Shown here one piece after another: positions 6,801 to 54,735 of a DNA stretch of 64,000 bases. The position numbers and the translations under genes were made by a program. The notes under the pieces were generated by a model that saw nothing but the letters and a program-made list of their open reading frames with translations, was not told the origin of the DNA and made no database searches. This DNA is from Ashinkailepas kermadecensis (lineage: Eukaryota > Arthropoda > Thecostraca > Neolepadidae). Position 1 is the stretch's first letter; each line of letters starts with the position of its first letter. The stretch is taken from contig JAOTOM010004363.1 of assembly GCA_034440615.1 (NCBI GenBank), forward strand, positions 46,001 to 110,000, read 5' to 3'.

Positions 6801-9332
6801 GGTGATTTGTGAGGAAATCAGTAGAAACTTTCGGAGGAAATGCCTTATTCTTGGTGACTTTAATATAAAAGGATATGAGAATGTTGGTGTTGGCTCCCCA
6901 GCATGTAAACTGTTTAGGAAATGCCTTGAAGAGGACGTGTTCTTACACCAGTTTGTAACGGAACCAACAAGGCAGGGCTCATTCTTGGACCTTGTCTTCT
7001 CGGATTTAAGTGATTTAATTCAAGACTTGACTGTAGGAGAAACTCTGGGAAGAAATGACCATGAAATAGTGAGATTCAAGGCACAAGTAGCAGGGACAAT
7101 CAAGGATAATTTGGCAAATGTTCCAAATTTTAACAGGGCAGACTTTGTCTGCATGAGAGCGGCTTTAAGGGCCATAAAATGGGACGAAGAATTCTCCGAT
7201 TTAAATGCCTGTGAAATGTGGGAAAAGTTCAAATCTTACGTGAGGGGAATTCAGATTAGACATGTCCCCCAAAAGCAAAGGCGCAAAAAAAGGGTAGGAA
7301 AGCCAGCATGGCTTAAACCAGATTTGATGAAAGCAATTAAGGCTAAGAAAGATGCATTTAGAGTATTTAAGGAAACTTCAAATATCGTAAATCTAAGGTT
7401 GTATCAAAAAGCTAGAGATGCTGTAAAGCAGAAAACCAGAGGAGCAAAGCGAGCAAAATGATTGAATTTGGCTAGGAACTGTAATGGGGACAGTAAAAAT
7501 TTCTTTACTGTTTCTACAAGCTAAGCAAAGTTTCAAGCACAATTGGTCCACTGGAGGTAAATGGGACTATGTTGAGTGAGGATGGTGAGATGGCTGAGGA
7601 GCTGAGCAAGCAGTTTAAACCAGTGTTTACATTGGAGGATGTGACTAATCTGCCAACCGTGAACCACAGTTCAGTGACAGGTGATCAGATACACGATGTT
7701 GATTTCATTGATAGTGATGTTGTTTTCAATCATATCAGGAAAATAAAGCCAACAAGGCAGCAGGACCTGATGGAATTTATGCTATGGTATTGCGGGAAGC
7801 TGAAAAGGAACTGGCAATTCCACTTAGTATAATACTTTGTAGACCAGTTTCACAAAATTAAATTCCAACAGATTGTAAAAGGGCAAATGTAGTTCCTATT
7901 TTCAAGAAATCAGAAAGACGGAAAGTTGAAAACTATAGGCCAGTAAGCCTCACATCCCTAGTCTGCAAGGTACTCAAATCAATTATCAAGGATAGAATAG
8001 TTAGTTTTCTGGAAGGAAACAGATTGATTCAAGATACTCAACATGAGTTTAGAAAAGGGTGATCGTGCCTCACAAATCTCTTGGACTTTTTTAATTTTGG
8101 TACAGAACAATTTAATCAGGGAAATCAGGTTGATGTAGCATATCTTGACTTTAGTAAGGCCTTTGACAAGGTACCCCATAAACGGTTAATGATGCAGCTT
8201 CAGGTCCATGGTATTGCAGGTAGCATCCTAAAATGGATAGAGTTGTGGCTTTCAGATAGACAGCAGAGAGTGATACTAAATGGTACAAAGTCATCATGGC
8301 AAAATGTTCTTAGTGGAGTCCCCCAGGGGTCGGTACTGGGGCCACTATTGTTCATTATATTTGTAAATAACATTGAATGTGCCCTAAGCAGTAAGGTTTT
8401 GAAGTTTGCGGATGATTTGAAGGTCTTTAGGGCAATAACGTGGCACAATGAGCAGGCCTTGCTGCAGAAAGACTTAGACGAGCTTGTGAAGTGGTCCGAA
8501 AAATGTCAAATGAAGTTTAATTTTGATAAGTGCAAAGTCATGCATGTAGGTAGGCAGAATATGAAGGGTCCATACTTGATGGGTGGCCAAGTACTATCTG
8601 TGACTCAGCAGGAGAAGGACTGATGTGTTATTTTGAACACAAAATTGGGGGCATCAGAACAGACCAAAGAAGCCAGGAAGAAGGCACTAAGAATGCATGG
8701 GGCAATACATGGGAATGTATCATACAAAATTGAGGAGGTCATCAGGAAGCTTTACTCTGCATATGTCAGGCCACATTTGGAATACTGTGTCCAAGCTTGG
8801 TCCCCTAGTGAGAAAGATTGTTGGCTTTTAGAGAGAGAGTACAAAAGAGGGCAACACAAATGGTTAATGGTATAGGCAACCTGGCATATGAGGAAAGATT
8901 GAAGAAATTGAATATGTTTTCACTTAGATATAGAAGGCTGAGAGGAGATCTCATCCAGGTTTTTAAATTTGTTCATGGTCAGGAACAGGGATATCTCAGG
9001 GAAATGTTTGAACAGAAATGATGCAATTAGAGGTCATCAATTCAAAATTAAAGTTAATCACGGCAGGACAAGATTAAGGCAGTCTTTCTTCACCAACAGG
9101 TAGTAGAACACTGGAACCAGCTGCCAGGAACCATTGTCAGTAGCAACACACCGAACATCTTTAAAAACAGCATAGACAATCATTATAAGAATAGGGGGCT
9201 TGTTTTTCTGTATTCCTGGGAGGGTTGATCGACGGATTTGGTGGGCAACTGATTCAGTGTCCAGAGTGGAACCAAGAAGGGTCCTTGTGGCTCATAGTTG
9301 CACTGATCTTTTATGTCTTTATGCCGAACACG
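6801..9332 (+). mobile_element. CR1-like LINE, 5'-truncated, nested insertion
   Basis: It begins inside the endonuclease (LILGDFN near 6,850 and GRNDHEIVRF near 7,055). It continues through the RT: VENYRPVSLTSLVCKVLKS, motif A YLDFSKAFDKVPHK, motif B SGVPQGSVLGPLLFIIFVNN and motif C KFADDLKVF. It finishes with the CR1-type C-terminus YVRPHLEYCVQAWSP and RLRGDLIQVFKF. RT catalytic residues are intact, but there are stops (for example TGA at about 8,061, inside FRKG*SCLTNLL) and frameshifts. The 3' end is a TTATGTCTTTATG-type repeat. It interrupts the minus-strand L2-like element: the host reading frame is continuous across the two outer junctions if one copy of ATGC is taken as the target-site duplication. 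Confidence 0.88.
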
Positions 9333-18777: not shown

Positions 18778-20043
18778 TACATATTTGGCCCTCGTTTTTA
18801 GGTGCTGCCCTCCAATCGCTTGCCTTTGAGAAACTAATTGCACAATTGCCTCTTGTGTATTTTATATGACTGAATGTGATAGATCACATGTGTGGAACTT
18901 AGTGCCGGTTTCTGTAACATGAATGATTAACTCCGGCATCCGAAAGTGGGCGACGGGGGAGGATTTTGGGACTCTAGTATTCAGTCGTCTATTCTCGGAA
19001 TATTATATTGTGTGCCTATATACCATACATCCTGATGTGTATTTTACTCCTTGGGAACGTAACAAATGAGAGAGGGAATGCATGAAGGAGAGAATGGTGG
19101 GCCATGTGCTACCCGACATAGATGTCTCGTGACAAGCATGATTAAGAAAGAAATATGCCGTGGAACAGCGCTGCGTCATGTTCATGATAGATGGTGCCAG
19201 GCAGTGATGGATTCAGAGGTGGGCAGGCCCCGGTGGGGAGGGGAGGGAATGGAATGTGCCTCCCTTCTGATCACAAAACTGCACCGCATCGGGAAAGCGC
19301 AACTGCACCTCTGAAATTTTGGCGGAAGGCGCCCTCGCGTAGGGGCGCTTAAGTCCCTTCTCCCCAAGTGGCCCTCGGACTCGGAGGAGCGCTGAAGTGC
19401 CCACAAGTGCCCCTCGGGAGAGGAGGAGCTCTCAAATGCGCTCGGTCACAGACATTTTAGAAGTTGCCACTCTGATGAAATTCGCTTCCCTTGGGGAGGT
19501 TTGGGTCGATGTGTTGCCGATCGGTGGCGTTCCTGCGGAGACATGGCTTCCCTGGACGAGTCCAGCACAAGGACGGGACGGGAGCGGTGTGGTTCGCCCG
19601 ACTGACCAACAGCTTCGGCGAGCACTCTTTCGGCGAACACACGGGGGCGATTCCAGACATTCTGATGGCAGCAGTCGTCCGGCAGGTGCTAATTCTATGG
19701 AGGGGAACTAACTGGAGAACGGAGAACTGGCCCAAAAATATAACTCCATGGGGTGTATGTCGGCCTGTCTAATGGAGCGCTGCGTTTCGAGCAGTAGCTC
19801 TCAGATCGAAAGGGGGGAGGGAGTTGTTCGATCTGGGTGGGGCGTGCAATGCCCTCAGCGTCTGTCTGATATGAACAGTGACGCTGGATATTTTCTGGCA
19901 ACATGAGCGCGTACAACATGAAAGCTGTGCAATATGCTCTCCGTGACGAACTTTTATGAAGGCGGCGTTTGCGGTAAGCTAACGCTCGGGTTCTTTTTTC
20001 GTCTCCTGTCAGATTTTTTTTAATGATAGCAGGGTCATTCTTT
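18778..20043. other. unassigned DNA
   Basis: Includes 19,315-19,440, with two or three imperfect copies of a roughly 40-bp GC-rich segment (GGCGC..AAGTCCC / GGAGCGCTGAAGTGCCC). The open frames have no recognisable motif. Confidence 0.4.
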
Positions 20044-20491
20044 GGAAACTCGACACCTCGATAACACAGCACCACCTCGGATTCCCATGCAAGTTTGTGT
20101 ATGGGGTTGTCTAGGCCCGAGAACACGAATCTGAGGTTTTTAGGTCCCTAGGTCTGACGGTTATTGCGTCACGATGACGTCATATGCTGACTTTTTTCTG
20201 CTCATTGCAAATTTCAATGCGATATAACTCCGAGGTTTATCATTATGTTTCAATTCTGTAAAATGTTTTGTAAAGCAGACGTAGTATGGTATTGCATAAT
20301 ATTTTTTTTGAATTTATACATCCATGTTTTATTATTTTTTACATTATATATTTTATATAATATCATTTTTCGAAAAATGTATAACTGTCGATTTTCGAAA
20401 AACATCCATATTCTGATTCTCCGTGCAATTCTGTATTAGAAACAATCAAAGATAGAATGGGCGCACCCCTGGAACACCGTCAGAAAAATCG
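20044..20491. repeat. transposon C, left terminal inverted repeat
   Basis: About 448 bp matching the reverse complement of 23,398-23,857. Landmarks in order are AACTCGACACC, GGGGTTGTCTAGG, TGACGTCATA, GATATAACTCCGAGGTTTAT and, at the inner edge, CGTCAGAAAAATCG. Similarity fades beyond 20,044, which I take as the outer end. Confidence 0.9.
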
Positions 20492-20639
20492 TTATAACAT
20501 AGCACAGGCCTCTGTCCTGGCTGTTGCAGCAGCGCTATGCACAATGCAACTATGGGCGATAACCTCGCTGCTGGATGCCATCCAGGGTGGGGGTAGGGTT
20601 CAGGTTTGCGGTGGGCTGCGTCGGTCATCTCCAATCAGC

Positions 20640-21230
20640 AGCGTATGCATTTAGTGGGGGGGGGGGGGCTGGGGGGCAATGCGCCGTAGTGTTTATACGG
20701 TGGGAATTTCCGGTTGTCCAAGAATAATCAAGTTGCGACTGCAGTCGAGAATGGCATAGAATGACATAGCAGCACAGAACAATTCAAAACGCGCTGCATT
20801 TCATGAAATTTCTAAAATATACATCCGGTTTTACGTAACCTGTCACTAATTCTTCTGAATGTAGACCATATACGCAGCGGTCTGTGAGCAGGTACGTAGC
20901 CAAGAACTCTGTCAGGGGGGGCATCTCACCAAAAGGGCCCAAGGTCGGCTCCAAAAGGGCACCAAACCTTCCTTGGCGGCGGAAGTGTTGCTGACTGGGG
21001 GTGGGGGGGGAGCGATGTCGGTGAGCGCGCCCGTGTGGCGGATGTGTTGCTGAGCGGGGCGGGGGGGGGGAGGGGTTGGGAAGCCGTGCCTGGCTTGCCC
21101 ATACTCTCGCAAAATCGCTACAGATCTAGTATAAGCTGCTTCCCTCAGGGGGGCTCAGGAGGGGGGGGGGCATGCCCCCCTGGCTGCCCCCTGGCCATGT
21201 CACTGTCTGTGAGAGATGCGAAATGACCGT
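20640..21230. other. G-run-rich segment
   Basis: Several G tracts of 7-12 bases (20,656; 21,001; 21,061; 21,160), including an imperfect GGGGGGCATGCCCCCC inverted word at 21,163 and two copies of a GTGTTGCTGA..GGGG unit (20,987 and 21,045). It lies inside transposon C and may be a secondary insertion. Confidence 0.45.
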
Positions 21231-21452
21231 ACTGCACGTACAATTCGATCACTGTCGTAAAAACGCGGGTCTAGGCGAGGCCGCATAGCACGTAATACGA
21301 GCGTCATGGAAACACGAGCGTCTTGACAACGGAGACGAGATTCGCACGATGAGATGTAGCGGCGTCGTTGTTGGGGTCTGACATGCTAGTTAGTCGTCAG
21401 TAGCCTTCGGTGCTGTGTGTAACATTGGTGAGGCTTCGCAAGCGAATGAAGA

Positions 21453-21847
21453 ATGGCACACAGGGTGTTAGTGGCAACATTTTGTGCGAATCCTTTCAAT
21501 TCACACCCAAAGCATAAGAGGTCAGGTTTGAGACCACTAACCCAGGAATACATCGACAAACATCCCAGTATTACAGGTGTGTTGCATCCAGGGGCAAGCC
21601 TTTGCACCACATGCAGGAAGCAAGTGCCGTGGAAAGATCAGCAAATTGCAGATCCCTCACAGCCCAGCACATCAGGTGCTCAGCATAGTCGGTCCCAGAG
21701 CTCGACACAGGATACCGCTGAAGCCGAAACATCGTCATCGTCGTCACCCTCACGACCAGCAAGTGATGTCTCTCCCGACAGACAACAAGCCACTGACTAT
21801 CTTCGCCGTATTATGTCGGCGGTTGGAGAAACGCCAATCCGCACAGG
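21453..21847 (+). CDS. N-terminal exon of transposon-encoded protein family
   Basis: ATG-started open frame of about 132 codons ending at a good GT donor (CACAG/GTAATTT). It begins with a cysteine-containing module, CANPFNSHPKHKRSGLRPLT, followed by ASLCTTCRKQV. This is the N-terminal pattern (CxNPF..H....GLR.LT ... G..IC..CRK) of an uncharacterised protein family repeated in arthropod and cnidarian genomes. A Ser/Pro/Gln-rich linker follows (QPSTSGAQHSRSQSSTQD), then SPDRQQATDYLRRIMSAVGE. The Cys pairs suggest a zinc-binding, perhaps DNA-binding, module. It lies inside the TIRs of transposon C; the matching C-terminal exon is at 22,510. The middle of the protein is absent. Confidence 0.65.
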
Positions 21848-22017
21848 TAATTTCAGTGCTATATACTAATATTACACATACGTCACGCATATATTTGTAA
21901 AACATAGAGCTCAGTTGTAATGGTTGTAAAAGAAGCACTGGCGGCCGCAGGGGGGGGCAACGGGGCCATGCCCCCTTTGGCTCCGAAAGGGGAGCCATCA
22001 TGTCTTTTGGCCCCCCT

Positions 22018-22185
22018 TTGGTTCAGGAGGCGCCCTCTCGGATCGCCTCGGCGCCCTCTCGGATCGCCTCGGCGCCCTCTCGAATCCACCCGGCGCCCTC
22101 GCCAGGCACGCTTCCCACGCCCCCCCCAGAATCGGAGAGCGGCGCCCTCTCGGATTCACCCGGCGCCCTCGTCAGGGACGCTTCA
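22018..22185. repeat. 21-bp GC-rich tandem repeat
   Basis: Unit GGCGCCCTCTCGGATCGCCTC occurs about three times in a row, with decayed copies to about 22,180. It lies in the intron or deleted region of transposon C. Confidence 0.7.
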
Positions 22186-22509
22186 TTCTTTATTAGCACC
22201 ACCTAGCGCCATTTTTCGCAATTTTCTGTCAGATTCTAATTTTCGCGGGATTTTGGGTATTCAGGGCACATCAGCTCAATATACCTAAGCCTTCACTGGT
22301 TACCCAGGATCAACAACTGGTCTTTATAAACAAATAAATAGTCCGTTCACTATGACACCCGTCAAAAGGGCGAGTGAAAGCAGCGCATTTCTTACCCGTT
22401 TTCTAGATACTCGTAAAAATATTGCATATGTGAAATGCTAAAAAGATCGAAGATTGTGCGATCGGGATGACAAATACTTGCAAGGGAGCTGATGAAAATT
22501 TCGTCCCAC

Positions 22510-22718
22510 AGGGATCGAATTCATCTACGTCTCCCAGGCGGACATCGAGAAGACAGCGACAATGCTGTCACAGCGTTTCGCTTCAGCAAAACTTGTGAAG
22601 GGCACGAGGAGCTTCCACTGTTTTCGGCCCAGAAGCGCGACTCGGGTGGCCGCATATGCGACTTCGCGGACCTCAACATTCAAACTAGTGAAAACTGTCG
22701 TTAATCGAAAATAAACCT
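22510..22718 (+). CDS. C-terminal exon of the transposon-encoded family
   Basis: After an acceptor-like TCGTCCCACAG, the frame reads GIEFIYVSQADIEKTATMLS, then RFASAKLVKGTRSFHCFRP, and ends at TAA near 22,718. It matches the family's last segment (pattern GI.F.FV....I......L..RF..A..V.GTR..H.F.P), seen also in copies A and B as KFIFVSKQEAMNVTTHLTERF followed by VKGTHGYYKFAP. The core with the putative catalytic motifs is missing between 21,847 and 22,510, so this is an internally deleted copy. A spliced two-exon transcript would lack the core. It is in the same strand and order as the N-terminal exon. Confidence 0.65.
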
Positions 22719-22849
22719 TTCGCCGACGCATTCCTTTGAAGCCTGGAGAATGTCTGAAATATAAAAATCCAGAGGAAATCGGAATTTCTATCGGTTCAGT
22801 CGCGTGGGGCATCCTATTATATCGCAAGGGACACCATTCTACACTGTAC

Positions 22850-23397
22850 AGTGCCCTGAACCCCCCCCCTCAGTCCCTCTTCCCATAAAGATGCCACTCA
22901 TTGTACACGACTGACGCAGCCCACAGAAACTCTGGTCTCCTCCCCAAGGGCGTCGCCACGGATTTTTATTTGGGGGGTCGGTCCCAGGGACGGATCTAGC
23001 CACTCGGTTTAGGGGGGCCAGTCCAGGCCCAGGACTTCTCGACCGGGGGGGGGGGGAAACGATGTCGGCTCGGTGTCTGGTGATTGTATTGTTGACCGGT
23101 TGTGTGTTAATCTCTGTGGTAGTTTTAAGGGAAAATGCTGTGACCGGGGGGGGGGGGGGAAGCGATGTCGGATGTCCGGTGTTTGTATCGTTGACCGGTT
23201 GTTTTTTGGGGGGGGGTCGAGCCCCCTAATTTTCAAAGTGGGGGTCCGACCCCCCTGACCCCCCCGGTGGCGACGCCCATGCTCCTCCCCCATACCCGCG
23301 CCCAATCCCCACCCTCACTGGATCCACCAGCCACGCTCGCGCTCAGCTCTTCACAACGCTACTCCAAATGGAGGCACATCAGGTGGTATGTTTTTTG
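22850..23397. repeat. G-run segment with about 102-bp direct duplication
   Basis: GACCGGGGGG..GATGTCGG..TTGTATNGTTGACCGGTTGT occurs at about 23,041 and again at about 23,142. Nearby sequences (CTCCCCAAGGGCGTCGCCACGG at 22,940 and CGGTGGCGACGCCCATG at 23,264) form an imperfect inverted pair, which suggests a small insertion inside transposon C. Confidence 0.6.
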
Positions 23398-23857
23398 CGA
23401 TTTTTCTGACGGTGTCCCAAAAGTGCGCCCACTCTATCGTTGATTGTTTCGTATACAGAATTGCACGGAGAATCAGAATATGGATGTTTTTATAAAATCG
23501 ACAATTATACATTTTTCGAAAAATGATGTTATATAAAATATATGATGTAAAAAATAATAAAACATGGATGTAAAAATTCATAAAAAAATATTATGCAATA
23601 CCATACTACGTCTGCTTTACAAACCATTTTACAGAATGGAAAAATAATGATAAACCTCGGAGTTATATCGCATTGAAATTTGCAATGAGCAGAAAAAAGT
23701 CAGTATATGACGTCATCGTGACGTAAAAACCGTGAGACCTAGGGACCTAAAAAGTTCAGATTCGTATTCTCGGCCCTAGACAACCCCATATAGCAACTTC
23801 CTTGGGAATTCGACAGGGTGCTGTGTTGAAACAGGCCTTCTGGGTGTCGAGTTTCTG
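23398..23857. repeat. transposon C, right terminal inverted repeat
   Basis: Reverse complement of the left TIR, from CGATTTTTCTGACGGTG to GGTGTCGAGTTTCTG, including the conserved TGACGTCA. The whole element is about 3.8 kb. Confidence 0.9.
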
Positions 23858-24515
23858 AAGAACTACTCAGCAGGAAAACGACTACGCGCAGGGAGGGACG
23901 CACAATTTTCAGCACCTTAGTTTTGATAATTGTTGCGTCTGAAGTGAGATTTTTAACCTCACGTCCTGTAAGGTCATTGATCTAGCTGAGGTGAAAGATG
24001 ACCACCTAAAAAAAAAATGTTTGAGGATCGATAGCTCACACGCATGCAGAGATATTGAAATGAATCCTGTTACGCTAGTGCAATTGGGCAGTGCCTCTAA
24101 AACGAATGTCTCGGATTTGTGTTGGAGACCTGGTCGTCGACCTAAGGTCACGGCCAATGTTGGCCACTTTTGGGCCAATTTCCATATTTTTGTAACATGC
24201 ATGCTCTTCTAACATCATTTTTCTACCTTGGCATGCATGCAGAAGTATCAGGAGAACTTCTCGATTTAATTTGCTTGACCTCCATCGAGCGACCTGATGT
24301 CAGGTCACGATAAAGTGTGCAATGTGGGCTGAGCCCGTCCAGACACTGCTGTTCTTATAATTTATTTCGAGTTTTCATAGCATAAATAGTGTCAATGTTG
24401 CATTGCACAACCTAAACTAGTCTAATATGCCGAAGTAAAAGGGTTTTGAACATCGATTGTTTCCCAATAACGGACATTTCTTACTTAAAAATTTACAAAA
24501 AATCAAGATAAAGCC
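23858..24515. other. unassigned DNA with AGGTCA words
   Basis: Isolated TGACCT/AGGTCA words (for example GACCTAAGGTCA at 24,139 and ATGTCAGGTCA at 24,297). No gene is recognised. Confidence 0.4.
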
Positions 24516-24656: not shown

Positions 24657-26364
24657 GTCTGTATAATTTGTGTGTTCCTTTGTCTATTTCGTCAGTGCAA
24701 CACTTCGTCTATTGACGGGGATGTCTTTTTAACCACTTGCGTGAATAAGCGTATAAACATGGTCATATAAAAGGTATTGGATGCTCTTGAGAAGTGCAAC
24801 TTTGTGGTGAATTACATGTTATATCAGAGAAATGCCGACAGACGCGGAGAGCAGCCATCTTTGGTGCATGACGAAAAGTGTCCTGTGCACCTTTCTCATG
24901 CCTCCACTACTTCATAACAGAAGTTAGTGGTATTGCACGCACATCATGAGTACCAGCCATTAGCATAATCATCGCAAAACATTGCTTGCTTGGGGAGATT
25001 ACTGCAGCAATGGGGCGTGGACAATGGTGTTTTCCAGACGAATAAAATTGAATACCAGTCTTTACGGTTGGTTAATCTAGGTAGGCAAATGTGTTTGTTG
25101 GGAAAGTCTGGTCTAGAAAATAATTAAAAGGAAATGAATACAATAAGTCATGTACTCTGCTTTCTATGCTATATAATAATTTAATTCCTGTATGATCGAC
25201 AAGTTAGAGATCCGGCATTTTCCTTTTACATTTGTATGTACTTGATATTGGTTTTGAGGAACATGCTCCTATAGCCACGAAGGCCCTCTTCATTTATGCA
25301 AAAACTGAGGAGATATTACATCACTTTCGATGATGGGTGAAACGCTAAGCAAATGCCCCATCTCCAGCAACAATGTAGCTTAGTGAAATCTCCGAATGCC
25401 TTAGATCCAATTCTGAGGTGACAAATAATCAATGGGAAAATTAGGTCATCGAATAACATTGGAAATGGGCACCACCGTACGAAACATTGATATCGTACCA
25501 ATACGTTCTCAGCTTTTTTAGCATTTGCTTCTCGATTTTCTGACGTGGACGTATCGCACAGGACACCTTACCATGTTGAACAAAGTGTTCCTGTGTATTG
25601 CATCAAGAAGACGATGTTTTTCCCATTTTCCTGGACAATGATTATATGGCCCATGTCCTTGGCTTGTCTGGTGCATGGCTGCATTTCTAGTCATTTTCTG
25701 CAGAAGCGAAGCCGATTAAGACTAGTTTCAGACGAATAACAGTGTTGCATGCCTACAGTTTGTTTCCATAATATTTTGCATATTTGAAGTAATTATTCTA
25801 AAGAGGAACTTCCATCCTCCATCATGCATTTTAAACCATGTTATTGTTTTCTAACTCGATAATGAATGGACTATCGCTTAATCGAGGTTTAGTTATCGGT
25901 GTGTGCACGTTATCATCAGCCGGAACATTGTTTTTTAATGTTTTTTTTTATAGAATTGACATCGGATGCACGATGGAGGCTACGGACGCACGCTGTCAAG
26001 CTGAGTATGTACTTGTGTCTCCCGAAAGATAAATATTAACTCCTGCATAAGCCCGGATACTTCAGTGCAAATATGTCGAGACAAACACATGGCGAAATTT
26101 AGTCGACTACGTCTTACCCGTTTAGGTATGTGCAAGAAGCGTCCTTCTCACCAAAAACTGAGTGCCGCTCCTCTTGTAAATAGTTCTGCTGCGTCTGCAT
26201 AGTGTGCTTATGTGCTAGAAAGACGCGCGCCAAGTTGAATATTGCATATGTCCACCAAGGAGAATGCTAATGTCGGTAAAAATGACGACAAAATTGGACA
26301 AAAAAGTGTCGTGTTTAGTGCGCAATGCAAGTGAAATCACATGAAGTCTGGTCAGATATCACTT
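24657..26364. other. unassigned AT-rich DNA
   Basis: No recognisable gene, repeat family or microsatellite. Confidence 0.45.
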
Positions 26365-26595
26365 TGATAACTTTAACATTTGCAGACAAATGACCAGTGT
26401 GACCCTTATCATTTTCTACCTATAGTCGTTGGTCATAACAGACATCAGCTTTACATTTCAAACACAGAACTCCCTGCTATCATATGTTGTATGCTTTCTA
26501 ACTTCGTAAAATTTTCCTTTTAATCTTCTTATGGCTTGTCTACATGCATCGCCTAAAGCCATGCCTAATTGTTGTTCGCGTGTGGATTCGACGTT
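26365..26595. repeat. foldback 2, left inverted arm
   Basis: About 231 bp, starting TGATAACTTTAACATTTGCA and ending near GTGTGGATTCGACGT. It matches the reverse complement of 26,935-27,164 closely. Confidence 0.92.
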
Positions 26596-26934
26596 CTTGA
26601 GACGTTCTTTGACGATGGAGGGTTTTTACCAGTCTTTGTCATACATACTAGGCTTTTGACCGGTTCTTGGCAATCTCATATTAGCATGTGACAAAATAGC
26701 AATCATATTATGCTAAATGTTCAAAAATTAGTTGATGCTCGTCATCACGTGACAAGTGAACTGGCAGCTCAGCATTGCATTTAATGGTTTGTGTTCAGGA
26801 TAAACAGTAGGATGCAACTTAAATTTGTGTCAAGGTCAGGTATATTCACAGGATAATGGCAACACACATGATGGTCGTTAACGTTCTTCCCGGAACTATG
26901 TCAGTTTATTAACCTTGGAAGTTTTCCTCATTCC

Positions 26935-27164
26935 ACGTCGAATCCACACGCGAATAACAATTAGGCATGTCTTTAGGCGATGCATGTAGACAAGCCATAA
27001 GAAGAGTAAAACGAAAATTTTACGAATTTAGAAAGCATACAACATATGATAACAGTGAGCTCTGTGTTTCAAATCTAAAACTGATGTCTGTTGTGACTAA
27101 CGGCTATAGGAAGAAAATGATAAGGGTCACTCTGGTCATTTGTCTGCAAATGTTAAAGTTATCA
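26935..27164. repeat. foldback 2, right inverted arm
   Basis: About 230 bp, starting ACGTCGAATCCACACGCG and ending AAATGTTAAAGTTATCA. The spacer (26,596-26,934) has no recognised feature. The small open frame across this arm is not supported by anything else. Confidence 0.92.
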
Positions 27165-27755
27165 CCTGGATATACCGATTACGTCTTGTATGTAAAATAT
27201 GCATTTGAGAAACGGTAAGTGCAGTGTACAAATTGTGGTCAATGGTGGTTCCAGTATATCTTGCTGGAGGGTGGGGTGCGATAGTAACATGCATAGGCAT
27301 TCATAGCCTTGGTATATTGAAACCCAATATCTGACGTGCTTTTTTGGCGTCACAAGGTACTGTTTGCGAGACATGCTTGCTGTAATTCGTCTTTTGTTTG
27401 TTTCGTTTACGCACTAAAAGCAAAATGTTGCATGCATTTTGACGGCCTCTATCCGGGAAAAAAAATCCAGCCACGAATGAGGGGATGAACAGAAAGCACC
27501 AAAAGGACGACATTGATTTTTTTTAAAGGCGGTTTATCTGGCCAACGACTAGGCCCACGATAGGCAACTAGTGCGGACATCGATGGCAGAGCCTCTGGTG
27601 GCTGTTATTGGTACTATTCATGCATGTTTAAATGTTCTGTACTTTGTTGCATATTTGCGCCATAACTTAAGTGCATAACAAATGGAGAAATTGCCTTAGA
27701 TCCGTTATCGTCCATTGCAATCAACTGCAAACTCAATACTGATATATTAGCCACT
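27165..27755. other. unassigned DNA
   Basis: Nothing recognisable. Confidence 0.4.
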
Positions 27756-34500: not shown

Positions 34501-34660
34501 GGATGAGTAGTGTAGGTGTAAGTTAGCAATTTCACAATCAAAAGATTGTGGGTTTGAGTCTCGCCTGTTGCTACTCTTTGCCTGCGGCCAATAAGTGTGA
34601 GAGATTGGTGATGCTGCATAACTCAATGGTTGAAGTGTTGTAAAACCAATAACCAACTAC
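34501..34660 (+). mobile_element. tRNA-derived SINE, family 1, copy 1
   Basis: The head is tRNA-like: a degenerate A box (GTGTAAGTTAGC) and a good B box inside AAGATTGTGGGTTTGAGTCTC with an anticodon-stem-like CAATC..GATTG hairpin. The body is GCCTGCGGCCAATAAGTGTGAGAGATTGGTGATG and the tail GTAAAACCAATAACCAAC. A clearly related copy lies on the minus strand at 54,204-54,368. SINEs are transcribed by Pol III from these internal boxes. Confidence 0.8.
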
Positions 34661-44110: not shown

Positions 44111-45234
44111 AGTGTGCAGTTATTGTCGCATGGTACCTCGAAAATGTGCTGCCAAATGAAATCTGGTGGTTTCTTCAGGTGTGGATTCTGAAATATTCTC
44201 CAGTTCCTCGAGGGGACGAATACATTTCCTCAGAGGGTCGCCTTCGGTGGCAAAATTCGTTGAGCGGATGCAGGGGCTGCGCATGAGAATACTGAGGGGG
44301 TACCTTATCCTCCGAACATAGCGCCTTTGGCTGGACAATTCGATCCAAAGGGGTGGGGGAGGGTCTTTTTCGGTCGAACCAGCGCCACCTTACTCTGGGG
44401 AGCGGGGGTAAAGACTGCCGTGGGACGCTGGGGAATGTATCTGGACGTCGCTGCTTATCAGTTATCAGCTATCTGGACGGTCCCCCAATGCCGGAACACT
44501 CGACTTTGACCATGAGGGATGCGGTTCACCGACGCGCCGGGCCGGGCATCATAACAAGCGGTGGGGCACAAGTTTGAATGCATACAGTTCAGTTTAGTGA
44601 ACACACAGCAAAATGGAATGGGCGATACCTTGCATTCGAATCCAGGGATATATTATTCAGGCATAAAAGCTAGGAAATCCATTTATCGCGCATTCTTATT
44701 TTCCTCGCGTTAGTCACAATAGATAACCTCACGGCTTAGGATAAAATACACATAAATTGTTATGTGCGTTGCAAGGAACATGAAAATACAGGAGTTGCGC
44801 CCAAATAGGGAAAGCAAAACTGGAATCCTTTCGGCCGGATATGGTGAATACACGACTAGAAACTGCTTGAAATGGTTCTTGTTCACTCTGGTGGAGCATT
44901 ATTGCAAAGCGCGGATCCAGGCTGCAGGGTGGGACGCATATGGTGCAAAAGATGCCTTTTATCTGATCGTATTTGCAAGGAACAGGCGTGCATCTATGTC
45001 GACCCCTCGTCGTTATGTCGTATTTCCGCCATTTAGCGGAAAAAATGCCGATTGCATGAAATGCATCCATGCAACAACGGCTTGACGGTTATGTGAGGTA
45101 CTTTTATACTCATTTTAAGAACATGACATCCCTTATTTGTTTGTTCTGGAAACAGGGACGCGGACAGGGCAGGAGCTGCCCTGTCCGCGAAGTGCAAACA
45201 AAAATATTGCGAGGTGTCTTCAAGAAACCTGCTA
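44111..45234. other. unassigned DNA
   Basis: No gene recognised. The minus-strand frame at 44,120-44,338 (FATEGDPLRKCIRPLEELEN) looks protein-like, but I cannot assign it. Confidence 0.35.
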
Positions 45235-46260
45235 GCCCATTCAACGCCAAATCGACAAGTGAAAGGGCAAAATACATCCAATAATTAATATTTTGATGCA
45301 AATAATTGTGTGGGGTTATCTGATGCACCGAATCCAGCTGTGAAATTCCTAGAAAGAACAAATCAATGGTCAAGGAGTTACAGACTGAGGCATTTACCGC
45401 CCCGGTAGCTCAGTTGGTTAGAGCGCTGGCCTGCACTGGTCTCCCCTGTCCTGGCAACGCAGGGTCCGAGTCGCTTCACGCGCTCGCATTTAGCCCCCGG
45501 CTGGGAGGGTCAGTTGGCAGCTGGCCCGATAAGGCCGGGGACGAGGTACCGGGCGGCCGTGTCTGTGCATTGACGGCACGTTAAACTTTCAGTCTAAATT
45601 CTGCCGTTGAACTGGAGTTCATGGATCGGGTGGCGGAGCCAGGGTTCACGCCACAAGCTCTGCTTAGCAATAGAACCCTGGTTCATAAAGCCATCCCAGC
45701 AAGAATTCAGATTAAATTATATATTTGTTTTAATGTGATAGGTCAACTAACAAGGGTGTCTTTTAAAGTGATTAATTCAATAAAAAACGATCCGAATTAT
45801 GCAAACGTATGCATAGGTGAACTCACAATAATTCACTGCATCTTTTGGCTCTTTCGGAATTTTCCTTTACGGGCTATTTGAAACGTGACATCGTGACCTA
45901 AGTGCACACGACCTACTTTAACTTTCGGAACAATCGCAATGCGATCGTAAAAAAATGCAAAACTGAAGTTCGATATTTTATCTTTCGAAGCAAGGAATAA
46001 AAAAACATGGTTTTGCCCATAGAACTCTACATATGCGCTCTAAATTAGGCATGAATGCATATTTTTGCTCTTGTGTGCCATTTCCTGTTTTAAAATGTCT
46101 CTAAAACGGTAGATCAATGAAATATAAGCATGTTCACGATCATCAAGGCACGTGCTGGGATGAAAACGTTGGTAATCTGAGCCTGAATGTTGTGTTGTAG
46201 AAGTATTCGAACACGTGATATCAAAGGTTAAACAGATATGACAAAATGTCTACAAATTGT
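45235..46260. repeat. transposon A, left terminal inverted repeat
   Basis: Starts GCCCATTCAACGCCAAATCG, then GGGTTATCTGATGCACCGAATCC, GGGTGTCTTTT, TTCACTGCATCTTTTGGCTC, CGTGACATCGTGACCTA and ACATATGCGCTCTAAATTAGG. The same series appears inverted at 49,500-50,545, and also in both TIRs of transposon B. It is interrupted by a SINE-like insertion (45,395-45,735). Confidence 0.88.
45395..45735 (+). mobile_element. tRNA-derived SINE, family 2
   Basis: GCCCCGGTAGCTCAGTTGGT, then TAGAGCGCTGGCCTGC is an excellent tRNA 5' half with A box. GGGTCCGAGTCGC is a B-box relative. The rest (GGCTGGGAGGGTCAGTTGGCAGC..GACGGCACGTTAAAC) is not tRNA. It sits inside the left TIR of transposon A; the same point is uninterrupted at 51,445 in transposon B, which shows it is an insertion. 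The tRNA-like part does not close a proper acceptor stem, so this is not a functional tRNA gene. Confidence 0.72.
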
Positions 46261-46386
46261 GGTAGTAGACGATTTATAAGTCCTGCCTTGCGATGAATTA
46301 CAAGGAGAGAGAAGCATCCACAACACAGCAACCACCTTATGATCACCGAGAAACCTTTCGCTCAACCATTTATTGCATCTCGAAAG

Positions 46387-47420
46387 TTAACCCGCGCACG
46401 TCCGGGGGGGGGGGGGCGGATATCTGCCCCCCCCCTGCGGTTTTTCCTACTTTACCGCCATACTAATCGGGTTAGCAAGGCCAACCCTCGCATGGCTGCT
46501 CAGTAGTCTTTTCCGCATATCCTCAGAAATTTTTGACCCTGGGTCATCTCAAGTCAGGTCACCAGGTCAGGCGAAATGACCTAACGTCCCTCCGAGTTCT
46601 AGGTGGCATCACTCCCACAATAATTGGGCGATTGATTTGAAACTTATATCACGTCATGATCTTATCAGGGTCTATAATATGTATGTCACGGTTTTTTCGT
46701 AGCGTTGACCTGAGTTCAGGTCGTGGCCATGGCTTACCCATTATAGGCCTATGGAAAAATATACAAATGTTTCCTGGTTACATATTTGCTCTCGGAATAA
46801 CCTCCAACCGTTATGGCGTGTAGTTGGAAGCTATTCGCAATGCTATCGCTGACATTTTTGCTCAGTGGCCCCACCAAGGTCAGCTGAGGTCACCTGAAAT
46901 CACTAGCACATTTCTGCGCATTATATCGCAATGCATTGAGCTAGAAGGCTGAAATTACCATCATTGTGCTTGTATCGCCAAGACGTGTCGATTGATATAT
47001 TACATGACCTCCCTACTCTACCCCATGACCTTGACCGGAGGTCATTGTTTCGGTGACCCATCTGTTGACCTGACCTTAAATTACACAGCGTATGTCGATA
47101 GCACATTTCGACGGCTGTCGGATAGCATTTGCAGTTTGTTTCTATCTGTTACAGGTCCTGAGATATGTGCCAATATCTGAGGGTCCCACCCGATCTGGTC
47201 GAATTTGACATACGATGACCCAGCGACCTAAATATTGACCTGAGCGAGAAAATGACCGAAATACTTGCGATAGAGCTTGTCACCAGCTATCCAAAGCCGT
47301 TTTCCGTTTGTCGCTATCTAGCATAGTTCTCGAGATCTTAGGGGGGGGAGCAGACATCTGCCACCCCCCCCCCCCTGGACATGCGAAGTTGGCGCGGACC
47401 GCCGGACGTGCGAGTGTTAA
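46387..47420. mobile_element. TTAA-flanked MITE, piggyBac-like (copy 1)
   Basis: TTAA at 46,387-46,390 and 47,417-47,420 bound a 1,026-bp element. The termini are CCCGCGCACGTCCGG (left) and CCGGACGTGCGAGTG (right, inverted). Both ends have a long G-run/C-run stem around GATATCTGCC / GCAGACATCTGCC. The interior holds TGACCT/AGGTCA words and no coding capacity. The homologous position in transposon B (about 53,745) lacks it and reads CGAAAATAAAAATATACG, so an empty site with a single, mutated TTAA-like word can be seen. Confidence 0.85.
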
Positions 47421-47435
47421 AATATCTGCGAATGT

Positions 47436-48895
47436 AGTGAAATATCAGGAGGGGCACGAACATCAAGTGGCGTCGTGTTTGGGTGCCCAGTGCTCACTGC
47501 TCACTCTGGCTGACCGTGCTGCCTGTGAAGCGCGGCAATTTCTGAGGGTGTCGGACGCAGACGAGGTGAAAGCAAAGCTATTTTATGAGTCTGACCAGAT
47601 CAGCCGCATGTGTCTCGGCAAGACCGACTGTGTCACGGTGTGACAGGCTGATGGAACCAAAAGTATAGTTCCGAAAAGGCCTGTTTTTGGAAACTTGTGC
47701 GAGATATATGATCTATGCAAGGAGAACCCTGAAAACCCTCGCACCAGCTTCTTAACCTTTGCCGCCCTTCGTCCGAAGCATTGCGTCTTGGCAGGCAGCA
47801 GCGGGACGCACTCGGTGTGGGTGTGCACTTATCAGCAAAACCCGAAACTGTTCATATCCGCTCTTGGCCTTCCAGGTCACAAAGGCCGTGACCTTCTCAA
47901 TCACGCTGTATGTGGGAAGGAAAACCGTGATTGTATGATGCACAACTGTGAGGACTGCCCTGGTGAAGACGGGGTGATGAACTTTCTAAGGATTATCCTC
48001 ACGGACAAATAAGGAGAAGAGAATGAAAGTGATTCAGCCCCAGATGATGACATGGATAATGGAATTAGGTACAGACAGTGGATGAGCATGCATCAGTGCG
48101 CACTCGTAGAAATAGTGTAGACCAAAGAAGAAAGCATGAGATATTGGAACCAGCAAGCCGTTAAGCTGATCAGACACCACTTTGTGGCTAACAAACAAGG
48201 TCAGTACTTCACCTACGCAAAGGCTACTGGCAAGGAAGGCGAAGCGATTGCCCAGTGCGATTTCGCTAAAAATTATTAATTTGCGGTGCAGGATGTAGCA
48301 CAAGACTTGTACTGGAATTCGTCCCAGTGTACGGGGCACCAGTTTGTAGTGTACTGGTGTGAGGACGAGGTACTGTGCCATCAGAGCTACTGTTGTATCT
48401 CTGACGGCACAAAGCACAATACCGACATGGTGCATGCGTTCCTGCAATGGCTTATCCCAGAAATTCGGACCGCAGTACCTGATCTCCAAAGATATTTATT
48501 TCAGATACGGCAGTGCTGCACAGTATGCGAATCAGCATAACTGCATCAATATGTGTTACCGTCACACAGATTTTGGGGTACCCTGTGAGTAGCATTTTTT
48601 GTCGCATCTCATGGCAGGAGCGTTTACGACGGTATCCGGGACACAGCCAAGCGTGTCGCCGCTCAAGAGAGCCTGAAGCACCGCTTAGCAACCAGGTACT
48701 GACGAAGGAGGACATGTTTGAATATCTGTCGCACAAGCTTGTCAACGGCATCAAGTTCATAGTTGTATCAAAGCAGGAGGAAATGAACGTCACGACCCAC
48801 CTCATCGAGCGCTTCTCGAAAGCTGTCACGGCGAAGGGAACACAGCGGTACCACAAGATCGCACCAGTGACCCACAGAACAGAAATAGTTCATTA
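47436..48895 (+). pseudogene. transposon A protein, putative transposase, decayed
   Basis: It encodes, in order: FYESDQISRMCLGKTDCVTV (47,580), LTFAALRPKHCVLAGSSGTH (47,755), QDVAQDLYWNSSQCTGHQFV (48,289), CCISDGTKHNTDMVHAFLQW (48,388), SHGRSVYDGIRDTAKR (48,610) and KFIVVSKQEEMNVTTHLIERF (48,750). These are ordered blocks of an uncharacterised family whose members carry patterns such as ALRPKQCVLAGASGTHSV and SHGKGxCDGxGGTxKR. I infer a DNA transposase from the flanking TIRs; the chemistry is unproven. Disruptions: in-frame TGA at 47,641 where copy B has CGA, TAA at 48,010 and 48,278, and frameshifts after 48,480. Confidence 0.72.
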
Positions 48896-49499
48896 ACTGT
48901 CTACCGATGCGGCGCGTATGCTAATGGTAGCTGGGTGAAATGAGACGAGTTAGGGTCCGCTCTGATGCATATTTTGAATTGTTATCATCGCAGTGACAGA
49001 TCATTAGCCTGCATTGGGATTCTGACAAGGTATGGGATGATCTGCATATCTGTAGATCATCACATTGCATTATATTATAATACTGTACTGCAACACCTAA
49101 TTGTATTGCATCGCATTGTGTAATTATGCTACTTCAATTTTGTTACGCTGATGTAGACAGATCACGTTCCAATTCGATTCATTTCAAACTCAACATGTAT
49201 CAATGAATGCGTCCGCACCAAATTTGTTATCAAACAGTTCACGATGACTACACTTACTGAGTCAATGACGTTCATCTTTTCGGTTCCAGAATGTGGGGTT
49301 TGAAACACCAGAAAGTTGATTTTACAGTGTTTGGCGGAGTTATAATCCATTCAGTGTTGTCGGTGAAATATGATCGTACATTTTTGATATGCTGGCATTG
49401 GTGCAGAAATATATTGTATCAGGTGAAAATTGATGTTTCTGTTCTTCCTACAAGTGACGATCTAGGATTTCACAAATCACCCTTCGTCGCTTCTGCATT
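48896..49499. other. transposon A, 3' noncoding part
   Basis: 48,960-49,250 is repeated inverted at 51,930-52,220 (ATTGCATTATATT, GTGTAATTATGCTAC, GATGTAGACAG). It holds clusters of GCATTGCATT-type words. 49,250-49,499 is not matched in copy B. Confidence 0.65.
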
Positions 49500-50545
49500 T
49501 ACAGAATAGCATTGTGACACTCTCGAAGGTCAAACTAGGTCACGTTATCTTAGGTCACAAGTTCATGGTTTAAAAAAACGCGTGAACAGAAATTTCGAAA
49601 CTGACACAAGATGCAGTGGATCATGACGAGTTCAGCGATATGTAGCTTTGTGCAATTTGTGCTACTCTTCATTGAGTTCCAGGCCTTCAAAGAGTTCGGT
49701 GACCACTAAAATATGTCCGAGGCTATAACTCCTTAACCGTTGCTCGGATCTTTCTCGAAATTGCATAGCAGCTGGAATATAGTGACAAACTTACTCTATA
49801 TGAGTATTTTCCTTCGAATATGAAGTGTGGGCTGTTATTTTGGCCCCTTCACTTGTCAATTTGTCGTGGAATGGGCCACCTACTACAATTCGTAGGCATT
49901 TCTGCCATTTCTGTTTAGCCCTTGACCTCACAACGAGTTAGAACACTTGTGCAACATAGCACTCTATCAGATGACTAACATTCTCATTCCCTCACGTGCC
50001 TCGAACGTCAAAAGGCTTGTATTTCAGTAGCATGCCGTTCTAAACACATAATAGGCCACGATAAACTAGCACAAAAACAACCATGCATGTCTAATTTAGA
50101 ACGGATATGTAGAGTTTTAGGGACAAAACACTATTTTTATGTTTTACTCCGAAAGATAACATATCAAACTTTATTTCTGCACTTTTTCAAATCGCAATGT
50201 GACTGTCTCGAAGGTTAAATTAGGTCATTTAAGTCACGATGTCACGATTTCAAATTAACCGTAAGCGAAAATTCAGCAAAAATCAAAGTATGCAGTGAAA
50301 TGTTGTGAGTTCACCGATATATGCTTTTGCATGATTCGGTTTGTTCTTCATTGTGTTAAGGACCTCAAAATACACCATTGTTAGGTGGCATCTCCGAATT
50401 GCCAGAGGCTATAGCTCCTTGACCATTGACCTGATCTTTCTAAAAACGGCATAGCTGGATTCAGTGCATCAGATAACCCACAATTATTTTAATCAAAATA
50501 TAAAATATTGGGTGTTATGCTCTTGTCGATTTGTTGTGAATGGGC
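49500..50545. repeat. transposon A, right inverted repeats (two stacked)
   Basis: Two TIR ends occur one after another. 49,508-49,880 runs from ATTGTGACACTCTCGAAGGT to TTGTCGTGGAATGGGCC. 49,900-50,545 runs from CTACTACAATTCGTAGGCATTTCTGCC through CAATGTGACTGTCTCGAAGG to TTTGTTGTGAATGGGCC. Both end with the same terminal word as the left TIR (GGCCCATTC when inverted), so either could be the true end. The extra one is a second insertion or a tandem duplication. Confidence 0.8.
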
Positions 50546-51304
50546 CTGCTGTAGATTCAGCCATGCCGAGACAAAAAGTTGACATTGTGACACCAAATGT
50601 ACATGAAAGCTGTGAACAGCCACCAAGTTTCGTGGAGCTACTCCTAATAGCAATTGACATTGAAAAGCATGAAGAAGGGAGTGGGACTGAATCAGCATCA
50701 TAAGGAATCAGGATAAGACTAGGCAAAGTATATGCTTTCGTTAGCACGGGAGAAATATGGGAAACATTGACATTAGTGCACACTCGAAGATGGGTGTTTT
50801 GGGCTGCAATGAATCTTGCGCACCGTACATGCGATGCATGGGTTCCCCAGGAATGAAATGGAATAGCGCAGTGGACCACGTTAATTATCACATATCTGTA
50901 AATCTTACCATGTCCATCCTTGTACACAAAACTACTGAAACATACCATCCATTATAGGTGAATGAGGCTAGTTTCTCATAACATTGCCCGCTCTTTCTGA
51001 ACAGCACTGGTTTTGGTGTTGCAAGTGGGAATGGCTTGCAATAGTGGTGAAATATGTTTGTACGATTTCTTGTGTTATTGCTGTTGATATTGCACAAGTC
51101 TCGTGCCCACACTATTAATCATAAGTACTCTCTCATACAGTGCATAAGTACTAAAGGTTTTCTGGTCATACAATTTTCGGATTGATAAGTGTAAATGAGA
51201 AATTAGCATTAGCAGTCACCAACCAGGAGGTCTGAACCATCACAACCCACCCCGGATCTGCAGCCATATGCAGTGGACATCAGATTGTCTGCATTTTCTC
51301 TTTA
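50546..51304. other. spacer between transposons A and B
   Basis: Unique sequence at the centre of the mirror arrangement. A 46-codon open frame from 50,563 (MPRQKVDIVTPNVHESCEQP...) ends at 50,703. It may be a remnant of coding sequence, but I do not recognise it. Confidence 0.4.
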
Positions 51305-51895
51305 GGCCCATTCCACAACAACTTGACAACACCCAATATTATATATTTCGATGAAAATATTTGTATGGGGTTATCTGATGCGTCGAATCCAGCTATAACT
51401 CCTTGACAGGTCAACGGTCAAGGAGTTATAGCCTCGGGCATTTCTGAGATGTCACCAAACAAGGGTGTCTTTTGAGGTGCTCAGTACAATGAAGAACAAT
51501 CCGAATTGTGCAAAAGTATATATCGTTGAACTCACAATAATTCACTGCATCTTTTGGCTCTTTCGGAATTTTCGTTTACGAGGTATTTCAAATCGTGATA
51601 TCGTGACCTAACGTAACGTGACCTACTTTAACTATCGGGACAGTCACAATGCGATTTGAAAAAGCGCAGAAATGTAGTCCGATATATTATCTTTCGAAGC
51701 AAACATAAATAAAAATAAGGTTTTGCCCCTAAGAATATATATATCCGTTCAAAATTAGGCATGCATGGTTGTTTCTGCGTTAGTTTATCGTGGCCTGTTT
51801 TATCATTGGTTTAGAACAGTATATTACTGAAATACAAGCCTTTTGATGTTCGTGGCACGCATCCCATCACGTGCAGGTATTCCATCACGATGAGT
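51305..51895. repeat. transposon B, left terminal inverted repeat
   Basis: GGCCCATTCCACAACAACTT, then GGTTATCTGATGCGTCGAATCC, AACAAGGGTGTCTTTTGAGG, TTCACTGCATCTTTTGGCTC and AAATTAGGCATGCATGGTTG. It is inverted relative to 53,760-54,735 and in the same orientation as the left TIR of transposon A. It is uninterrupted at both points where SINEs have inserted into other arms. Confidence 0.9.
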
Positions 51896-52213
51896 AATCC
51901 CATTCATCTTGAACTGCTTGAGAACAAATTTGGCGCAGACGCATCCATTGACACATGCTGAGCCTAAACTGAATCGCATTGGATCATCAGCCGTCTACAT
52001 CGGTGTAATAATATAAAGTAACAGAATCACACAATGCAATGCAATACCATAATGTGTTACAGTACAGCATTATAATGCAATGCAATGCAATGATCTACAG
52101 ATGTGCAGATCACCCCATACCTTGTCAGAATCCCAGTTCAGGCTGACGATCTGTCACTGCGATAATATTAATCAACACAAGCTGTATCAGCGCGCACACC
52201 AACACGTCTCACT

Positions 52214-53730
52214 TCACCCAACTTCCATTAACACACGCCCCGCATCGGTAAGCAGTTCATAAACTATTACGGTGCTGTGAGTCAATGGTGCGAACTTGTA
52301 GTACCCATGTGTTCCTTTCACCGTGATGGCGTTCGGAAAGCGCTCGGTGAGGTGGGTCGTGACGTTCATTGCCTCCTGCTTTGATACAAATATGAATTTG
52401 ATGCAGCTGGCTAGCTTGTGCGACACATACTCAAACATGTCCTCCGCCGTCGGTATCTGGTTGTTAAGCGAGCGCTTGGGGCTCTCTTGAGTCGCGGCAC
52501 GCTTTGGCTGTGCCCCTGATGCCGTCGCAAGCGTCCATGCCATGATATGTGACAAAAAGCCACTCACAGGGTACCCCAAAATATGCCTGATGGTGACACA
52601 CATTAACGAAGTCATGTTTATTCTTATACAGCCGTCTGTGAAATACATATTTTTGGAGGTCAGGTACTGCGGTCCGAATTTCTGGGATAAGCCGTTGCAG
52701 GAACGCATGCACCATGTCAGTGTTGTGCTTTGTGCCGTCAGAGATACAGCAGTAGCTCTGATGGCACAGTACCTCGTCCTCACACCAGTACACTACAAAC
52801 TGGTGCCCCGTACACAGGGACGAATGCCAGTGGAAGCCTTGAGCTACATCCTGCACCACAAATTAATAATTGTCGGCGAAATCGTACTAGGCAATCACTT
52901 CACCCTCCTTGGCAATAGCCTTTGCGTAGGTGAAGTGCTGGCCTTGTTTGTCAGCCACAAAGTGGTGTTTGATCAGCTTCACGGTTTGCGGGCTGAAATA
53001 TCGCATGCTTCCCTCTTTGGTCTAAACTATTTCTGCGAGTGTACAGCGGTGCGTACTCATCCACTGTTTGTACCTAATATAATTATCCAAGTCATCATCT
53101 GGGGCTAAATCACCTTCACTCTCTTCTCCTGATTTGTCCGCGAGTCCTTAGAAAGTTCATCAGCCCGTCTTCACCAGGGCAGTCCTCAGTTGTGCATTAT
53201 ACAATCACGGTTTTCAATGTGTCACATACACACACATGCGAAATACAGCGTGATCGAGTAGGTTACGGTATTTGAGACCGAGAAGGCCGAGAGCGGATAT
53301 GAGCAGTTTTAGGTTTTGATGATAAGTGCACATGTACACCGAGTGCGTCCCACTGCTGCCTGCCAAGACGCAATGCTTTGGATGAAGGGCATCAAAGGTT
53401 AAGAAGCCGGTGCGAGGGTTTTCAGAGTTTTGCTTGTATATATCATATATCTCACACAAATTTTCCAAAGCAAACCTTTCTTGAACTCTACTTTTGGTTT
53501 CATCAACCTGTCGCACCGTGACACGGTCGGTCTTGCCGAGACACATTCGGCTGATCTGATCAGACTCCTAAAATAGCTATACTTTCACCTTGACTGCGTC
53601 CGACACCATCAGGCATTTCTTCGCTTCACAGGCAGCATGTTCAGCGAGAGTGAGCAGTGAGCACTGGGCACCCAAACACGGTGCCACCCCTTGTTTGTGC
53701 CCTCCCTGATATTTCACTACGTTCGTATAT
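52214..53730 (-). pseudogene. transposon B protein, putative transposase, decayed
   Basis: Same protein as transposon A, on the opposite strand and slightly better preserved. Blocks in order: MCLGKTDRVTVRQVDETK (53,546), LAGSSGTHSVYMCTYHQN (53,360), MVQDVAQGFHWHSSLCTGHQ (52,859), CCISDGTKHNTDMVHAFLQR, a short KNMYFTDG segment (52,650), FVNVCHHQAYFGVPCEWLF, YHGMDACDGIRGTAK, then IPTAEDMFEYVSHKLASCIK and VKGTHGYYKFAP. The QGFHW block and the CHHxxxFGVxxEW block are well-conserved family positions. It is broken by frameshifts near 53,215, 52,640 and 52,520. The upstream zinc-type N-terminal exon seen in transposon C is not found here. Confidence 0.75.
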
Positions 53731-53759
53731 TTTTATTTTCGCGATGTAATAAATGGTTG

Positions 53760-54735
53760 TGCTATAAATGGTTTCTCGGTTATCGGAATGCGATTGCTAT
53801 ATTGTGGATGCTTCTCTCTCCTTGTAATTCATGGTAAGGTATAACTCAGAAATAATCTACTACCACAATTTGGAGACATTTCTGCCATTTTGTTGGCCCT
53901 TGACCTCACGAGTTAGCACACTTGTGCAACACAACATTCAAGATCAGATGACTAACATTATCATCCCATCACGTGTCTCGAACGCCAAAAGCATTGTATT
54001 TCAGCAATATACCGTTCTAAATACATATTCACATAGGTCACGATAAACTAGCGCGAAAACAATCATGCATGCCTAATTTTAAACGGATATGTAGAGCTTT
54101 AAGAGCAAAACCCTGTTTTAAAAAAAATACTTTTTGCTTCGAAAGATTATATCTAACTTTAGTTATGCACTTCTTTAAATCGCATTGTGACTGTCCCGGA
54201 AGGTGATGGTTGTTGGTTTTACGACACGTCGACCGTTGAGTCCTGTAACGTCGCCAATCTCTCACGCCGATTGGTCGCGGGCGAAGAGCAGCGACAGATG
54301 AGACTCGAACCCACAATCTTTCGATTGTGAGACGGGCAACTTACCCCTAGATTGCTCGTCCCCCTTTTTGTAAAAATAGGTCACCTGTCCTAAGGTCACG
54401 ATGTCACGATTTCAAGTATCCAGTAAACAATAATTTTGAAATAGCCAAAAGATAAAATGGGTCATTGTGGGTTCACCGATATATACTTTTGCACAATTCA
54501 TATTGTTCTTCATTGAATTATAGTCCTAAAAAGACACCCTTGTTGGGTGACATCTCAAAAATTCCCTTGACTCCTTGACTTGACTCCTTGACCGTTGACT
54601 TGATCTTTCTAAAAATGGCAGAACTGGATTCGGCGCATCAGTTAGTCCCACACAAATATTTTCATTAAAATATAATATATTAAGTGTTATTTTGGCGTTT
54701 TCAATTGTCGATTTGTCGTGGATTTGCATATGGCG
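53760..54735. repeat. transposon B, right terminal inverted repeat
   Basis: Runs from GGTTTCTCGGTTATCGG and TTGTAATTCATGG through GGCATGCATGATTG-type words (inverted) to GTCGATTTGTCGTGG. It pairs with 51,305-51,895 within B, and over nearly 1 kb with the left arm of transposon A. It is interrupted by a family 1 SINE (54,204-54,368). Confidence 0.88.
54204..54368 (-). mobile_element. tRNA-derived SINE, family 1, copy 2
   Basis: On the minus strand the order is GGACGAGCAATCTAGGGGTA, then CACAATCGAAAGATTGTGGG with a B box TTCGAGTCTC, the body GACCAATCGGCGTGAGAGATTGGCGACG, and the tail GTCGTAAAACCAACAACC. It is a clear relative of the copy at 34,501. It splits the right TIR of transposon B between GGAAGG and TAGGTCACC. 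The corresponding sites at 50,210 and 51,630 are unsplit. Confidence 0.82.

Follow-up and report, generated by a model that had tools for sequence, protein, structure and literature searches.

A probable internally deleted DNA transposon with long terminal inverted repeats in Ashinkailepas kermadecensis, and its predicted transposase family

A 64,000-nucleotide stretch of the Ashinkailepas kermadecensis genome (assembly GCA_034440615.1, contig JAOTOM010004363.1, positions 46,001 to 110,000, forward strand; here termed the window) contains, around 20 kb, what is very probably an internally deleted, non-autonomous copy of a young cut-and-paste DNA transposon. The element occupies positions 20032–23868 of the window, with AGCA on both flanks, and its ends were fixed by comparison with copies elsewhere in the genome. 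It is an insertion with a 4-bp target-site duplication and conserved ends, it has many copies in the genome, and it has lost an internal segment that full-length copies retain. Both terminal inverted repeats (TIRs) and the first and last exons of a predicted transposase are present. Its features are as follows.

20028..20031, no strand: left target-site duplication (AGCA), from genome copies
20032..20505, + strand: left TIR, terminus 5'-GGGTCATTCTTTGGAAACTCG, from window self-comparison and genome copies
21453..21846, + strand: transposase exon 1, N-terminal C..H..C..C (zinc-type) domain, putative start, donor GT at 21847
22183..22186, + strand: single internal deletion junction (∼1.87 kb, core exon 2 gone), relative to full-length copy L013
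22512..22714, + strand: transposase last exon, GIEFIYVSQADIEK...KGTRSFHCF, acceptor AG at 22510–22511, stop TAA at 22712–22714
23383..23868, − strand: right TIR, terminus ...GAAGAACTACTC-3', from window self-comparison and genome copies
23869..23872, no strand: right target-site duplication (AGCA), from genome copies

The TIRs are ∼475 bp long. A first-pass annotation, made from the letters of the window alone, had put them at ∼450 bp and the element at 20044–23857; the repeats are real, and the element extends from 20032 to 23868. When inverted, 23862–23383 aligns with 20038–20505 at 88.5% identity over 480 columns, the ungapped arms being 92% identical. No inverted pair of at least 400 nt with a spacing above 1.5 kb occurred in any of 23 control stretches (138 kb, from the window and its flanks), so the pair at 20 kb does not reflect chance. 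As the same annotation had stated, the two exons between the TIRs belong to one protein family and stand in the order and strand expected for it: among 141 database protein queries, 27 match 21453–21860 and 88 match 22496–22828. Exon 1 carries the motif string CANPFNSH...GLRPLT...CTTCRK, and the splice sites, assigned by eye, are a donor ACAG/GTAATT (21846/21847) and an acceptor CACAG/GG (22511/22512).

A search of the genome (908 Mb in 4,689 contigs) with the left TIR yielded 143 candidate places, and the 40 of these that were scored are 97–100% identical. Twenty copies were fetched, each with up to 10 kb of sequence, and both TIRs were found in 19 of them, the remaining copy (L020) showing a single TIR within the sequence retrieved. 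Seventeen fetched copies had ends that could be placed, which with the window element makes 18; one further copy (L010) meets a contig end and another (L009) has an altered terminus. An exact 4-bp duplication flanks 15 of the 18, two others match at three of four bases, and one does not match. By comparison, four-mers agreed in 8 of 936 cases at offset positions and in 9 of 306 between different copies. From the window alone a 6-bp duplication, AGCAGG, had been considered, and was rejected once the 18 copies pointed to one of 4 bp; the extra GG that follows AGCA on the left represents the element's own first bases. Termini in this family begin GGGT. The left TIRs differ from their own consensus by only 0–1.3%, and since the copies are nearly identical the family is a candidate for recent activity.

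Full-length copies of this family measure 5.6–5.8 kb and consist of exon 1, a core exon and the last exon. Six such copies have placed ends (L013, L014, L024, L025, L027 and L028); exon 1 and the core are detected by protein match in all six, and the last exon, at the same threshold, in all except L027. The core exon of L013 is open over 558 codons, while the frames are broken in some other full-length copies. The window copy is colinear with L013 on either side of a single ∼1.87-kb deletion, which directly bears out its earlier description as an internal-deletion derivative; the lost segment includes exon 2, which bears the predicted catalytic aspartates. Copies of 2.5–4.1 kb with varied internal deletions are common among those fetched, and some of the shorter copies, with other deletions, retain only exon 1 and some only the last exon.

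We propose that the window copy, lacking exon 2 but retaining both TIRs, was probably moved in trans by the enzymes of intact copies. An appreciable though smaller probability attaches to a different order of events, in which a full-length element inserted and was then deleted in place. Two observations leave room for this second order, namely that the one clean deletion relative to L013 fits either, and that the window's deletion junction was absent from the 20 copies fetched. However, deleted copies are common: among the 19 fetched copies with both TIRs, 12 are under 5 kb, and an exact 4-bp duplication flanks nine of the 12, as would be expected if deleted forms transpose. The evidence on this point covers 20 of at least 143 places. 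Since the donor end of exon 1 and the acceptor end of the last exon are compatible in phase, a spliced protein without the catalytic core is conceivable in deleted copies, and by analogy it might act as a DNA-binding repressor of its own family. The KP form of the P element is a precedent for a deleted copy that represses the family to which it belongs.

The protein family was first searched with a composite query read from a degenerate element at 47.4–48.9 kb of the window, which gave 31 proteins among 5,745 candidates; an alignment-based search then gave 237 proteins among 7,994 scored, of which 120 were listed. By their source names, members come from Ephydatia, Patella, Antedon, Rotaria and Frankliniella. 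Residues D467, E470, H519, D550 and H568 and the cysteines at 365, 372, 377 and 380 are invariant in all 108 aligned members, D591 is present in 107 of them, and the N-terminal C..H..C..C pattern recurs in many of the members that span that region. Three pieces of the query matched no Pfam family at the cut-off, and in a Pfam scan of 40 members no family was found in more than four (the best was HTH_23, E 0.048). No sequence match was found in the PDB, and no homologue was confirmed in viral, bacterial or archaeal contigs. The few source names among the listed members read 'hypothetical', 'uncharacterized' or 'unnamed', with one 'UPF0246 protein'.

The first-pass annotation had taken this protein for a transposase and had proposed structure prediction as a check. 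Two AlphaFold models both predict an RNase H fold in which D467, D550 and D591 occupy the positions of the DDE/D catalytic residues, that is, one following b1, one following b4 and one in the last helix. Among the 50 matches listed by VIA-align, the solved structures that rank highest are those of retroviral integrase cores and of Mos1. No hAT, P, MuDR or Transib structure is among these 50, which does not exclude them. Foldseek, run on the first model, returned nothing at E ≤ 0.001. Identity to the retroviral integrase cores and to Mos1 is only ∼10%, and the root-mean-square deviation from Mos1 exceeds 11 because the domains are positioned differently. The third acidic residue is an aspartate in this family, whereas in retroviral integrases it is a glutamate. 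Residues ∼687–770 of one modelled protein (P0020) form a C-terminal beta-rich domain of high predicted local distance difference test (pLDDT) score. This domain is present in some family members and missing from the last exon of the window subfamily; the two-domain Rous sarcoma virus (RSV) integrase aligns across it, with a high deviation.

On this model, full-length copies would encode a three-exon transposase whose zinc-type C..H..C..C domain and helix-turn-helix probably bind the ∼475-bp TIRs. The RNase H-like core with its three aspartates would cut the element ends and join them to target DNA, and a 4-bp stagger in the target would give rise to the 4-bp duplication.

Homologues outside the window subfamily were also examined for flanking inverted repeats, as the first-pass annotation had suggested. 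A genome protein search gave 88 matches from 80 scored of 5,414 candidate stretches, and nine loci (L029–L037) were picked by hand from these; because all nine have open frames they are not a random sample. At every one of them the coding region lies between inverted repeats of ∼466–741 bp (L029 being completed by L038), the weakest pair being that of L034, at 67%; among the loci examined, the absence of flanking repeats that would have spoken against a transposon was thus not seen. An exact 4-bp duplication adjoins the matching ends of seven loci: AGTG at L029, AGCA at L030, CCCT at L031, AGTC at L032, TATT at L034, AGCT at L036 and, assigned by eye with 7 of 15 terminal matches, CACT at L035. 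No 4-bp duplication was found at plausible ends of L033 and L037. The termini of the seven loci with duplications begin GGGG or GGTG (GGKG), and the elements measure ∼4.4–6.7 kb where both ends were placed. Since the TIRs of L030, L033 and L037 form one subfamily (89–93% identical), the nine loci amount to about seven TIR groups; similarity among several of the others is short and weak, and the 20-kb TIR of the window has no match among the nine at E 1e-5. These arrangements bear on the notion that the TIRs merely enclose exons of a host gene, or of another mobile element carrying the domain, that was captured or domesticated. The protein is indeed widespread in animals and is a predicted host gene in some. 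However, in several subfamilies the gene is enclosed by TIRs, most of them adjoined by 4-bp duplications, and the protein is predicted to fold like an integrase or transposase, which makes such an origin very improbable. A DNA-transposon transposase, as first suggested, agrees with the TIRs, the 4-bp duplications and the predicted fold alike.

Two elements whose transposase belongs to a different subfamily of this family lie at 45–55 kb of the window.

45234..50546, + strand: element A, older than the 20-kb copy, flanked by the target-site duplication TGCT at 45230–45233 and 50547–50550
about 45234–46385 and 49880–50546: TIRs of element A
47458..48947, + strand: transposase core of element A, degenerate with stops and frameshifts, from protein matches
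51305..54730, − strand: element B, same subfamily as A in the opposite orientation, ends approximate
52205..53885, − strand: degenerate transposase core in element B, from protein matches

Copies of a ∼1-kb inverted repeat, which has no match to the 20-kb TIR, bound each of the two. The earlier statement that the family recurs here inside different TIRs thus holds in the form of two degenerate cores within a repeat unlike that at 20 kb. A target-site duplication was sought for element B and none was found. A and B are ∼0.75 kb apart and inverted, and so form a palindrome; its 1.8-kb arms are 83% identical and take in the coding cores, and four copies of one TIR lie within it (45234–54730). The left TIR of A contains a ∼350-bp insertion (45387–45735) that opens with the tRNA-promoter-like GGTAGCTCAGTTGGTTAGAGC and which, from the motif, we presume to be a tRNA-derived short interspersed nuclear element. 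Scans of the window with Rfam (gathering threshold) and for tRNAs with ARAGORN returned no matches. A 155-bp repeat is present as inverted copies, 79% identical, at 34501–34655 and 54207–54361, the latter inside the right TIR of B.

Two further repeats in the window are of other kinds. The inverted repeat at 26356–27173 has 239-nt arms (92%) separated by 340 nt; its ends are unlike those of the GG-rich family, and it is a possible miniature inverted-repeat transposable element of another type. A direct repeat of ∼570 bp (8758–9323 and 36774–37347, 95% identical) adjoins frames that by eye resemble reverse transcriptase, and probably represents copies of a long interspersed nuclear element.

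The protein described here is predicted in many animal genomes, has no Pfam model, and the few names given to it among the listed members are uninformative. With a function as transposase, a fold and catalytic residues (both predicted), defined ends and a duplication length assigned to it, the family can be masked and classified rather than counted among host genes.

The Sola superfamily, with the groups Sola1, Sola2 and Sola3, was reportedly defined by Bao et al. in 2009. Judged by published traits and not by sequence, the present family probably belongs to it, so the novelty implied by the first-pass annotation was not sustained. piggyBac also has a DDD (three-aspartate) RNase H transposase and a 4-bp duplication (PMC9499001, PMC9587614), but there the duplicated target is TTAA (PMC9587614), which occurs in none of the 15 exact duplications, and piggyBac was rejected. 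Kolobok, likewise a eukaryotic DDD/E transposase with a 4-bp duplication, was rejected on the same count (TTAA, 0/15) and because the C/DxxH motif reported after its second aspartate (PMC9587614) lies between D550 and D591 in only 7 of 108 members. Dada, described as duplicating 6–7 bp and inserting in small RNA genes (PMC3706591), was rejected on duplication length, which is 4 bp here.

An undescribed DDD superfamily, found in sponges, molluscs, crinoids, rotifers and thrips and marked by GG-rich termini (GGKG in the seven loci, GGGT in the window family), 4-bp duplications and a CHCC N-terminal domain, is the rather unlikely alternative to Sola. It would accord with the lack of a Pfam family and of informative names, and with a literature search in which the motifs DFSENY, SDGCAGQYKN, ATSHGK and HGKGACDG had no match. 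However, the missing name means little, as that search did not reach the 2009 Sola definition or the 2011 survey. The target sites also count against placement in Sola: amoebal Sola2 is described as having AT-rich AWWT duplications (PMC3627910), and only 4 of the 15 exact duplications here fit that pattern. For this reason a Sola group other than amoebal Sola2 is more likely.

In the other published traits compared here, the family agrees with Sola. A review gives Sola a DDD transposase, 4-bp duplications, TIRs of 11–1,124 bp and lengths of mostly 2–9 kb (PMC10741241). The present family has three predicted catalytic aspartates (D467 and D550 in 108/108 members, D591 in 107/108), within a predicted fold of the DDE/D RNase H-like transposases and integrases, and 4-bp duplications at 15 of 18 copies, seven of nine other loci and element A. 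Its TIRs are ∼466–741 bp, and its elements are ∼4.4–6.7 kb, with full-length copies of the window family at 5.6–5.8 kb. Because these traits fit the published ones, a new superfamily is unlikely. The sizes are also close to the mean of 5,445 bp given for curated Sola1 elements in bivalves (PMC10294476).
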